Shown here piece after piece: positions 54,796 through 57,612 of a stretch of DNA of 60,933 bases. Under the pieces are notes generated by a model. The model was not told the origin of the DNA, searched no databases, and saw nothing but the letters and a program-made list of their open reading frames with translations. Source of the stretch: Anaerolineales bacterium (GTDB taxonomy: Bacteria; Chloroflexota; Anaerolineae; Anaerolineales; Villigracilaceae); the NCBI GenBank assembly GCA_014860805.1, contig JACZJB010000038.1, forward strand, positions 1 through 60,933, written 5' to 3'. The translations under genes and the position numbers were made by a program. How positions within the stretch are numbered: position 1 is the stretch's first letter; the number at the start of each line of letters is the position of its first letter.

Positions 54796-54831
54796 GGTCT
54801 TTCTCCTTCTAGTTCGCTCACGTGCATATAG

Positions 54832-54904
54832 CGCCCCCGCCGGGATTCGAACCCAGAACCTCCTGCTTAGAAGGCAGTTGCTCTGTCCATTGAGCTACGG
54901 GGGC
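54832..54904 (-). tRNA. tRNA-Arg (anticodon TCT)
   Basis: A 73-nt cloverleaf on the minus strand. The acceptor stem is 7 bp (54898-54904 with 54833-54839), the anticodon arm carries the loop CTTCTAA with anticodon TCT, and the T arm has GGTTCGAATCC. The discriminator is G; CCA is not encoded. It would decode AGA. It lies just upstream of hsp20 and right after a two-gene module. Confidence 0.96.
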
Positions 54905-54913
54905 AATAACACC

Positions 54914-54919
54914 ATTTTA
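54914..54919 (-). promoter_or_regulatory. Possible -10 box of the tRNA-Arg unit
   Basis: TAAAAT on the minus strand ends 9 nt before the tRNA 5' end and overlaps the stop codon of the upstream gene. No clear -35 is seen, so confidence is low. Confidence 0.35.
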
Positions 54920-55363
54920 CTCGCTCGCCGCAGACGAGACGGGTTCCGGCGCCTGGTAAGGTCTTAATCCGCGATAGACACGTGGGCCCGCAATGGTTTT
55001 CAAGATAGTATCCGCCGGCCTGCCCAATCGTTTGGCCAGGTCTTCGGCAGACATGGGAATATTTCCATTCACCAAAAATGTTCGGAAGATGGCTTCAACC
55101 ATGGCGGTTCGTTCGCTCGAAAATTCGGGGAGCATCGCACAGTGACTCATCAATGCATGCTGCACACCATCGACCGGTTTCACTTCTGCGGTTTGAGGAT
55201 CGATCCAATCGATCATCTCTCCTTCTTCAACACTTGCAAAGGCGTCCTGATGCTCCTGGCACAATAAAGAACGCAGGAAAACATGCCAATCTCTTTCGCT
55301 TTTCTTCCACCATTCGAAATCAATGTGAAAAGGAGTTTTTGTACTTGGTTTTAGCAGGCTCAT
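54917..55363 (-). CDS. Unrecognised protein, partner of the large neighbour
   Basis: A 148-residue soluble protein. The N-terminal half has aromatic and acidic patterns (FHIDFEWWKKSERDWHVFLR and GEMIDWIDPQTAEVKPVDGV). The C-terminal part, from about 85, looks like a winged helix: AMVEAIFRTFLVNGNIPMSA, then EDLAKRLGRPADTILKTI and GPRVYRGLRPY. Two Cys are present but not as a metal motif. It overlaps the 523-residue neighbour by 4 nt, strongly implying joint function. I know no named family; a nucleic-acid-associated role is inferred from the winged-helix look. Confidence 0.75.
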   Translation of the reverse strand: MSLLKPSTKTPFHIDFEWWKKSERDWHVFLRSLLCQEHQDAFASVEEGEMIDWIDPQTAEVKPVDGVQHALMSHCAMLPEFSSERTAMVEAIFRTFLVNGNIPMSAEDLAKRLGRPADTILKTIAGPRVYRGLRPYQAPEPVSSAASE

Positions 55364-56931
55364 TCAACCTCCATATCGAGGCGGAAGTGCAGGTCGCCCA
55401 CATGCTTAAAGACTGGGTTGGTCGCCAGCAGGGCAAACAATGGAGCAGGCGGCACGCGGCGCACAAGATTGACTGCCGCATATAATTCCTGCGCATGCAC
55501 ATGCCCTTGTGGATTTGACTTCGTCAATTCACGCATGACAAGCAGTACCAAATCTTCAAACGAACGTTTCTTCTCCCAAACGGGATCCAGGGTCTTGAAA
55601 TCGGGCACATGGATAACCATGCGGTCGTTGAATTCAGCAGTGATAGGTTGTTTCAACATGGCAAAAATAAATCCGCCATCCGTGCCGACCATGACAGTAC
55701 GCACCCAATCTTTCGAGGAACGCTGGCTTTTCACTTCCACAATTACTTCACCGGGCTGTTCACCTTTACGCAATTGAACAAGAGAGCCTGGAATTAATGA
55801 GTGCGCTTTGTACCATTCGCGCAGACCGAAGACATATCCATGCTTGAGCACAACCCAGGCAGGGATGCGTTGTTTCGTCTTGCCGTCCACGAGAGTGAAG
55901 CGCACACGCTGGGTTTCGTAAGCAGTTGGAAACAACTTGCGCGCACGGGGTGACATGGGCAATGTCCCTGCGCGGAGGTGCGGATAGATAAGTGAAATTG
56001 TGATCGAGGAAATTTCCTCGCGAGGATCAAGGTCTTCGGACGGCGTCAATTCATCGTCCAACTGCGATTCGAGGTTTTTCATCGCAGGGGTTAATTGATC
56101 GCGGTCATGTTCGATCTCAATGTAACGCAAAGGCGGTGGGATTTCACGCACAAAATCAGGTTCAAGGCGGCGCAAGCACCAAAGTACCTGGCCCGCTGGA
56201 CCAACCTCATCGAAGCGGTCATCATCCTGCAAGGCATAATTCAAAGAAAATTCTGCCAACTTGGGATTCACTCCCGTGGGCAGCTCTATCTCTTTTATCA
56301 ACGCGTCCGCCTGCAATGGTTCCCCGCCAGACATATCCAAAACCGCTTCAGCGAGATTTAGCTGACCTTGGTTGATGTCGATCAACAGCGCGCGAGGGAA
56401 CCAGCGTCCAGCGATCTTCACCAAGCCTTCATCTGCATTGAATGCAGATTCCAATTTCTTTTCAATCGTCTCCGCATGTTCACGCAAAATCAACGCGGAA
56501 CTAACTTCATCACTTTCAGGTGTAACGAGCGGCGCATCGTTCAATAAATGAGTTTCGAGACGGGCCGCAAACATACGCTCTGAACTGTCTTCCATTTCAA
56601 CGGTCAGCACATCAAATTCGCTGACGGATGGATTCATTCCTGCGCGCACGGCTGTAACTTTTCCACGCTTCCACTCCAGCGCAGGGAAAACAAGCTCGTC
56701 GCCAACCGCATACGTTTCCTTCGGCAAAAAGGTTTTACCGGCTGCCTTGCGGCTGCTCTCTGCGGCTTTCCGCTCCGCGCGAATACGCGCCTCGACAAAT
56801 TCAGAAGCAAGATCGCCCGTTGTTAAAGGCGTCTCACGCTCAAAGAGAAAGGTATGAAGATTTTCAACGTCTTGCGGGGTGACTTGAACCGATGACCAAT
56901 ATTCGTTGGGAAGTTTGAATGCGCCTGCCAT
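55360..56931 (-). CDS. Unrecognised 523-residue protein with winged-helix and beta domains
   Basis: A soluble 523-residue protein in several parts. Residues 18-60 resemble a winged helix (TPQDVENLHTFLFERETPLT). Residues 65-130 form a small beta domain (KETYAVGDELVFPALEWKRG, then KVTAVRAG). Residues about 190-275 look like a HARE/RNA-polymerase-delta-type winged helix with LQDDDRFDEVGPAGQVLW. Residues 330-415 are beta-rich (QRVRFTLVDGKTKQRIPAWV and HGYVFGLREWYKAH). The C-terminal 70 residues (FEDLVLLVMRELTKSNPQGH) may be a third winged helix. The architecture hints at transcription or DNA-associated work. The promoter box TATAAT lies at 56975-56980. Function unknown. Confidence 0.75.
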   Translation of the reverse strand: MAGAFKLPNEYWSSVQVTPQDVENLHTFLFERETPLTTGDLASEFVEARIRAERKAAESSRKAAGKTFLPKETYAVGDELVFPALEWKRGKVTAVRAGMNPSVSEFDVLTVEMEDSSERMFAARLETHLLNDAPLVTPESDEVSSALILREHAETIEKKLESAFNADEGLVKIAGRWFPRALLIDINQGQLNLAEAVLDMSGGEPLQADALIKEIELPTGVNPKLAEFSLNYALQDDDRFDEVGPAGQVLWCLRRLEPDFVREIPPPLRYIEIEHDRDQLTPAMKNLESQLDDELTPSEDLDPREEISSITISLIYPHLRAGTLPMSPRARKLFPTAYETQRVRFTLVDGKTKQRIPAWVVLKHGYVFGLREWYKAHSLIPGSLVQLRKGEQPGEVIVEVKSQRSSKDWVRTVMVGTDGGFIFAMLKQPITAEFNDRMVIHVPDFKTLDPVWEKKRSFEDLVLLVMRELTKSNPQGHVHAQELYAAVNLVRRVPPAPLFALLATNPVFKHVGDLHFRLDMEVE

Positions 56932-56974
56932 ACTCAGCCTTGAAATGAATTTACGCCTACCATGAGGCCACGTG

Positions 56975-56980
56975 ATTATA
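56975..56980 (-). promoter_or_regulatory. -10 box of the two-gene module
   Basis: A perfect TATAAT on the minus strand, about 44 nt upstream of the ATG at 56931; a ribosome site (AAGG) follows. The -35 is not evident. Confidence 0.45.
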
Positions 56981-57126
56981 CCTTACCTTGTTCAGACTTC
57001 CTATACTTTGCGAAAAAAAGCACAGGAATAGCGGTCGAAGAAGAATTCACACATTTTCTTCATCATCTTCTCAAGTAAATCGTGTAAATTTTACGGCTTC
57101 AACACGTCTGTATAAAAACAAAAAGG

Positions 57127-57612
57127 ATGAAAATGAAAAAACAAATTTTGATCATCGCAGTTTTGATTTTTGCAATTACACTTTCGGCTTGCGGTGGACA
57201 AGCGCCTCAGTCCGCGACGGAGCCTGCCGCACCAACCGAAGCAGTTTCCCAGCCGACGGACATACCGGCAGCAACCGAAACAGCCGTCCCTGCGACAGAA
57301 GCGGCAACAAGCACTGACGTTCAGCCGCCTGCCGGGGTCAGTTTCGTCAATAACATCAAGCCCATTTTTGATGCGCGCTGTATCAAGTGCCATGGTGTCG
57401 AACAGACCAAGGAAGGTTTGGATATGCAGACGTATGAAAATATCTTTGCAGGTTCGCGCAACGGACCGGTGATCGAGGCTGGCAATGCCGCAGACAGTTT
57501 GCTCGTCCAATTGATTGTAGACGGTGAAATGCCGAACCGTGGAGCCCCCGTCACCCCTGAAGAGCTCCAGTTGATCATTGATTGGGTAAATCAGGGCGCG
57601 TTGAATAATTAA
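57127..57612 (+). CDS. Cytochrome c-like lipoprotein
   Basis: A 161-residue exported protein with lipobox LSAC (Cys near 22), a long Ala/Pro/Thr/Glu linker (about 26-70) and a mono-heme domain with CIKCH (residues about 85-89). The domain resembles the compact cytochrome type in which the distal ligand Met lies in DGEMPNRGAPVTPEE. It likely carries electrons at the outer face of the membrane. ATG 57127 and ATG 57133 are both possible starts; AAAAGG lies just before the first, and better spacing favours the second. A terminator follows. Confidence 0.85.
   Translation: MKMKKQILIIAVLIFAITLSACGGQAPQSATEPAAPTEAVSQPTDIPAATETAVPATEAATSTDVQPPAGVSFVNNIKPIFDARCIKCHGVEQTKEGLDMQTYENIFAGSRNGPVIEAGNAADSLLVQLIVDGEMPNRGAPVTPEELQLIIDWVNQGALNN

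Follow-up and report, generated by a model that had tools for sequence, protein, structure and literature searches.

B3 domains bind DNA in a sequence-specific manner through two loops, and the delta subunit of RNA polymerase has an acidic C-terminal tail. According to the available excerpt of one account, the bacterial B3 domains with described DNA binding are found in restriction enzymes (PMC4267653). HARE domains, in the available excerpt of another, have an extra helix inserted in the helix-turn-helix and are proposed to be readers of modified bases (PMC11037411). The portion available of a survey of plant B3 domains states that an EcoRII gene as their ancestor has no other supporting evidence (PMC2688026).

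Here, we describe BIG and SMALL, two overlapping genes in the window, the 60,933-nucleotide stretch of DNA from an Anaerolineales bacterium that was analysed as a whole. We propose, tentatively and at somewhat less than an even chance, that their products would form a two-protein factor associated with DNA or transcription, in which a basic B3 domain would serve as the grip on DNA.

Results

BIG and SMALL overlap downstream of a conserved −10 element

Both genes lie on the minus strand, BIG at 55360..56931 (523 aa) and SMALL at 54917..55363 (148 aa), and their open reading frames overlap by 4 nt, read as ATGA at 55360-55363. An earlier reading of this DNA, made from the letters alone and called here the sequence-only reading, had described two overlapping minus-strand genes of these lengths, and the frames and their overlap bear it out. 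We consider both to be real genes because single-sequence searches recovered each of them in 58 of 61 near genomes, own genome included; G003, G012 and G040 have neither. Some BIG copies are partial, with 21 residues at a contig edge in G011, residues 296-521 in G020 and residues 60-519 from the contig start in G042. The relatives have one BIG match per genome except G017, where BIG is found in three overlapping pieces (G017:C2:689494-691052), reflecting either an assembly error or decay. Divergent from BIG in the window, the plus strand at 57127-57612 encodes, as judged by eye, a putative lipoprotein (LSACGG) whose sequence includes a single heme-type CxxCH motif (CIKCH).

A TATAAT hexamer is located upstream of BIG at 56980-56975, where a −10 box had previously been proposed. 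Its conservation was counted in the 42 loci with an anchorable BIG start among the 80 best loci from the genome_contigs collection (84,980 species). TATAAT was retained 38-86 nt 5′ of the BIG start in 41 of these 42 loci, compared to 1.75% of random 80-nt windows from the same loci. Alignment of 19 BIG upstream regions revealed an extended −10 element, AAGGTAAGGTATAAT (56975..56989, minus strand), common to most rows. This stretch has a single exact copy in its own assembly and is therefore not a general promoter motif there. A sigma-70 promoter scan returned no −35 element paired with the TATAAT of BIG, and expression from this promoter would be constitutive. The leader between the −10 element and the BIG start (56932-56974, minus strand) contains, by eye, a short GC-rich inverted repeat in many relatives. 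The arms of this repeat seem to vary in step across relatives, and it may be a 5′-end hairpin or an operator.

Neither protein matches a known family

BIG had no match in Pfam or NCBIfam at E values up to 10, and SMALL gave only a sub-threshold match to HTH_20 (E = 0.17). Scans of distant relatives resulted in sub-threshold noise against Pfam and nothing at E = 0.1 against NCBIfam, and no nuclease or methylase domain was matched in these scans of BIG, SMALL and the relatives. PADLOC had no match for the window pair, while one SMALL relative (L094) reached E = 0.048, and PHROGs returned noise for the pair, SMALL alone at E = 0.32. The earlier impression that both proteins lie outside any known family thus agrees with Pfam, NCBIfam, PADLOC and PHROGs, which gave nothing above noise. 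A search for BIG in 72,556 plasmid and 50,697 phage records also came back empty at E up to 1e-5. A viral-contig scan with one BIG-only relative found no match, and Foldseek against viral models gave a best E of 0.009 and none at 0.001. We found no description of a BIG/SMALL family in the open-licence literature.

Several candidate relatives were rejected. The PDB sequence match to SspA (E = 0.063) and the matches of O-GlcNAcase (E = 0.43 or more) are noise. A frame in G284 (L061) matched BIG in a single-sequence search (E = 9e-4), but by eye it looks like a DEAD-box-type helicase, and it is not matched by the profile. We also noted two long open frames, one of 2193 codons that weakly matched the C-terminal portion of BIG (G335:C11:187660-188109; E = 2e-7) and one of 1563 codons that matched HARE (G136:C5:11563-11751, L125; E = 2e-5).

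Co-occurrence of BIG and SMALL is confined to one Chloroflexota class

Profiles A1 (53 rows, BIG) and A2 (62 rows, SMALL) were used for a wider search of 301 Chloroflexota genomes, in which BIG was found in 76 and SMALL in 73. Both genes occurred together in 37 genomes, all from the window's own class and representing 37 of its 38 members, a total taken from the kinship-ordered genome listing; the remaining member (G012) has neither gene. Beyond this class, 39 genomes have BIG only, 36 have SMALL only and none has both. Since co-occurrence is confined to one class, we regard the pair as a trait of that class, and either gene alone ranges more widely than the pair.

In genome_contigs, 530 stretches matched the search pattern and 458 of them encode a relative; the best 80 of these 458 are all named Anaerolineae or Chloroflexota. 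The closest record with a name, at 99% identity, is an Anaerolineales MAG, which agrees with the class Anaerolineae that the sequence-only reading had supposed. SMALL adjoins BIG on the same strand in all 80 of these best loci, the gap being estimated at −61 to 68 nt, although this figure overstates conservation because the loci are those of the closest relatives. Constant adjacency of the pair, which the sequence-only reading had put forward as a check, holds for these relatives, but it does not extend beyond the class, where each gene occurs without the other. The sequence-only reading had named homologues found apart as evidence against its proposal, and the BIG-only and SMALL-only genomes outside the class are exactly of this kind. 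An obligate complex could be argued only inside the class, since each gene lives without its partner elsewhere.

BIG is predicted to contain a B3-fold domain

AlphaFold2 models of the two proteins taken singly were both confident (BIG, pLDDT 91.7 and pTM 0.79; SMALL, pLDDT 92.1 and pTM 0.83) and displayed B3 and winged-helix folds. From the N-terminus, BIG is modelled as a winged-helix-like segment (about residues 10-66), a small beta barrel (about 68-128), an acidic HARE-like winged helix (185-258, referred to as WH2), a B3-fold domain (307-404), a beta hairpin (402-432) and a winged-helix-like domain (440-520). The barrel and the B3-like domain correspond to two beta-rich modules that had been recognised in the sequence.

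Fold comparison of BIG residues 307-404 with VIA gave Z = 11.0 against the plant proteins FUS3 (6j9b_A; rmsd 2.6, 98 residues), ARF5 (4ldu; rmsd 2.3, 94 residues) and VAL1 (6j9a; rmsd 2.6, 97 residues). Restriction enzymes were also matched, with Z values of 9.0 for LlaJI, 7.2 for BfiI and 7.0 for NgoAVII. Foldseek likewise ranked plant B3 first, the four best chains having a probability of 0.98-0.99 and a TMt of 0.62-0.67, but E values of 0.05-0.08. On the basis of the model, a B3 fold in this region is predicted with confidence, and an earlier guess of a B3-like domain is strengthened by the fold match. No sequence or profile method that we applied ties residues 307-404 to B3. The Pfam B3 family PF02362 matched neither BIG nor 45 members of the domain, and its one sub-threshold match across 151 genomes was on a different contig from BIG. 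The alignment of the domain (A3) found nothing among PDB sequences at E up to 10.

The B3-fold domain (residues 304-404; 55720..56022, minus strand) has a net charge of +9 and a pI of 10.4 in the window. It is the sole clearly basic domain of BIG, which is acidic as a whole (pI 5.25 in the window). Its net charge averages +4.5 across 43 own-class-type sequences (range −3 to +9), whereas it is acidic in 10 BIG-only proteins (mean −4.8). Inspection by eye revealed an RYPTxNRGGW-like basic loop in the BIG-only B3 domains that is absent from the class rows displayed. The domain charges suggest that, within the class, nucleic acid is probably gripped by B3 and that WH2 is a protein-docking surface. 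By the same measure, DNA binding would not be family-wide, because the B3 domain is acidic in BIG-only genomes.

The pair could alternatively be a DNA-modification reader or a defence element, comparable to B3- or HARE-containing restriction enzymes. In the excerpts available, the described bacterial B3 DNA binders belong to restriction enzymes (PMC4267653) and HARE domains are proposed as modified-base readers (PMC11037411), which would fit such a role. However, nuclease and methylase domains were unmatched, PADLOC had no match for the window pair, and BIG is absent from the plasmid and phage records searched. Among relatives, the pair is also near-universal with one match per genome (G017, in pieces, excepted), unlike patchy defence genes, and we regard a role of this type as very improbable.

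Predicted winged helices of BIG and a HARE-like profile

The HARE-like winged helix WH2 (residues 184-262; 56146..56382, minus strand) matched many winged helices over residues 185-258, with tied Z values of 6.6-7.9 among the matches listed. The tied matches include RpoE delta (8x6g_E; Z = 7.5, rmsd 3.5, 76 residues) and the SelB winged helix (1wsu; Z = 6.9). A winged helix is predicted here with confidence from the model. We compared profiles of the domains with 13 Chloroflexota HARE domains using hhalign. WH2 reached a probability of 89% (one template, E = 2.4e-6), compared to 4% for the winged-helix-like segment near residues 10-66 (WH1), 16% for that at 440-520 (WH3), 32% for SMALL, 0.1% for the barrel and 42% over 16 columns for B3. 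The Pfam HARE family PF05066 did not match the BIG of the window, found a single member among 45 WH2 sequences (E = 0.036) and had no match at E = 0.001 in the own assembly. The extra helix inserted in HARE domains was not seen in the model, which shows only H188-200, H208-212 and H223-236, helices of fewer than 4 residues not being listed. Together, these results are suggestive of a resemblance between WH2 and HARE at the profile level only. The sequence-only reading had likened this segment to HARE or delta; the hhalign result and the tied delta match speak for that likeness, whereas the PF05066 match and the extra helix do not.

WH2 has a net charge of −9 in the window and a mean of −9.1 over own-class-type sequences, and is unlikely to bind DNA because it is so strongly acidic. 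WH1 and WH3 appear winged-helix-like by secondary structure and pattern. Up to three winged helices had been supposed in BIG, and one of them (185-258) is well matched, the other two being candidates by secondary structure or pattern. WH1 aligned with the N-terminus of BIG-only proteins in hhalign (97%, 39 columns). The small barrel at residues 68-128 gave no signal in hhalign against either of two modules that bind RNA polymerase, the CarD/Mfd RID and the UvrD/PcrA Tudor (27 and 25 sequences; 0.3% each); the comparison is a weak test because the two known modules score only 5% against each other.

SMALL has a predicted winged helix and a putative metal site

SMALL is modelled with an N-terminal alpha/beta part that contains a putative metal site (C35, H38, H74 and C75), followed by a winged helix at the C-terminus (about residues 84-138). 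The winged helix is predicted with confidence, and its fold matches are weak, the best Z with VIA being 4.4 and the best E with Foldseek 1.2 among the families listed. A winged-helix-like end had been noticed in the sequence, in keeping with the model and these matches. Across 62 SMALL members, C-x2-[C/H] and the last Cys are both present in 47, the first motif alone in 0, the last Cys alone in 3 (one of which, L102, has C-x2-D) and neither in 12. The third ligand place, which stands outside this count, is His or Cys in 44 of the 47 and Asp in 3. Joint loss of Cys/His ligands is what a metal site predicts, and the aligned sequences are consistent with a putative site of this kind in SMALL, for which zinc may be the metal. 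The Fisher p value for ligand co-loss (p = 2e-10) overstates the association because the SMALL rows are related.

A tRNA-Arg(UCU) gene adjoins the pair and a HEAT-repeat gene follows BIG elsewhere

A tRNA-Arg gene (anticodon TCT; Rfam tRNA, 68.8 bits) is located on the minus strand at 54831..54904, 12 nt past the stop codon of SMALL. In 49 of 70 loci with both genes, tRNA-Arg(UCU) lies downstream of SMALL at a distance of no more than 150 nt and on its strand. These comprise 27 of the 30 loci from the own genus (L001-L030) and 22 of the remaining 40. In the other 21 loci, it is 178-1695 nt away in 8, on the opposite strand within 2 kb in 2 and not present in 11, one of them lacking flanking sequence and another having just 337 nt of it. 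The 80 best genome_contigs loci have it within 150 nt of SMALL in 71 and within 2.5 kb in 78. Among 34 class loci longer than 10 kb, 26 have tRNA-Arg(UCU) within 2 kb, compared to 17 for the commonest protein neighbour other than SMALL and antisense frames, a response-regulator cluster, in a clustering that also groups antisense frames and merges domains. The tRNA gene is retained beside SMALL though the remaining neighbours vary. In many members, BIG and SMALL are probably co-transcribed with it.

No recognised gene neighbour of the pair points to transcription, and the coupling to tRNA-Arg(UCU) could itself reflect function, the pair being a translation or tRNA factor that acts on tRNA, the ribosome or mRNA. 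Such a function would agree with the frequency of the tRNA gene within 150 nt and with its lead over protein neighbours, with the SelB winged helix among the tied matches of WH2, and with the location, by eye, of several SMALL-only loci near yebC and one beside pheT. However, tRNA-Arg(UCU) was not found in 20 SMALL-only loci (covering 20 of the 36 such genomes, some with short flanks), where L101 has other tRNA genes clustered 3 kb away, and no tRNA was found in 16 BIG-only loci (covering 16 of the 39 such genomes). The profiles match no RNA-binding domain, and operon inertia can preserve a tRNA neighbour. We consider a translation or tRNA factor distinctly unlikely.

The SMALL-only homologues (L088-L107) mostly have CxxC...CC-type motifs and represent a family without a name in classes of Chloroflexota other than that of the window. 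Several of their loci are also, by eye, near ruvC/ruvA, signal-peptidase-like or macro-domain genes.

A HEAT-repeat gene lies directly downstream of BIG in 13 of the 16 BIG-only loci (L051-L055, L057, L058, L060, L082, L083 and L085-L087), and the copy in L055 matches Pfam HEAT_2 at E = 6.4e-25. PIG-L-like and FemAB-like genes come next in several of the BIG-only loci, by eye. A HEAT-repeat protein possibly replaces SMALL as the partner of BIG in BIG-only genomes. This arrangement, together with the overall acidity of BIG and the acidic B3 domain of BIG-only proteins, would suit a protein scaffold in which B3 and the winged helices serve protein contacts alone, for example in a multi-subunit housekeeping complex where the HEAT-repeat protein takes the place of SMALL outside the class. 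We judge a scaffold unlikely, since both the B3 domain of the window and the class average are basic, and since the basic loop seen by eye is retained in BIG-only B3 domains.

Discussion

We tentatively favour a chromosomally encoded two-protein factor, belonging to one class of Chloroflexota, that would act on DNA, most likely at the transcription machinery or the nucleoid. The basic B3 domain of BIG would grip nucleic acid in the manner of plant B3 factors and BfiI/NgoAVII-type DNA-binding domains, without a nuclease domain. The winged helices of BIG, the acidic HARE-like one included, may be docking surfaces for proteins such as SMALL and perhaps RNA polymerase. As a partner of BIG, SMALL would be a winged-helix protein stabilised by metal, with both encoded on one transcript that in many members probably also carries tRNA-Arg(UCU). 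We infer complex formation, nucleic-acid binding and a role in transcription for the two proteins. It is doubtful, though conceivable, that the B3-plus-winged-helix core is a wider Chloroflexota chromatin or polymerase factor outside restriction, which in one class brought SMALL and a tRNA-Arg gene into its operon and gained a HEAT-repeat partner elsewhere. Such a factor would represent a non-nuclease bacterial branch of the B3 fold and add a candidate from which the plant B3 domain may have come.

If the favoured reading of a two-protein factor is true, a large class of environmental bacteria has, in almost every member sampled, a factor that went unnamed. The B3 fold would also be established in a conserved bacterial protein outside restriction, and a second bacterial branch would ease the question of the origin of plant B3. 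The conserved coupling to one tRNA gene, which the sequence-only reading had not mentioned, is a concrete oddity open to testing.

Among known systems, HARE-HTH domains and RpoE delta may resemble WH2 by hhalign (89%) and by fold (8x6g_E, Z = 7.5), and acidic C-terminal tails like that of delta are also seen, by eye, in 12 of 16 BIG-only proteins. In contrast to these systems, WH2 has a near-absent Pfam match, has no extra helix in the model and is located inside the multi-domain BIG, and the delta match is tied with others. Because the PF05066 match and the extra helix both failed, BIG is not classed as HARE. The likeness of SMALL to ScpB (2z99; Z = 4.4, rmsd 6.7, 61 residues) and FeoC (4awx; Z = 4.4, rmsd 3.0, 54 residues) is confined to the winged helix, with Z below 5. 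Residues 307-404 of BIG are alike in predicted fold to the B3 domains of plant FUS3, VAL1 and ARF and of bacterial LlaJI, BfiI and NgoAVII, and this domain is basic in the window. Unlike those proteins, BIG has no PF02362 match and no joined nuclease, its domain lies between the winged helices of a near-universal protein, and the domain is acidic in BIG-only relatives. By predicted fold, BIG would belong with the B3-domain proteins, outside the sequence definition given by PF02362.
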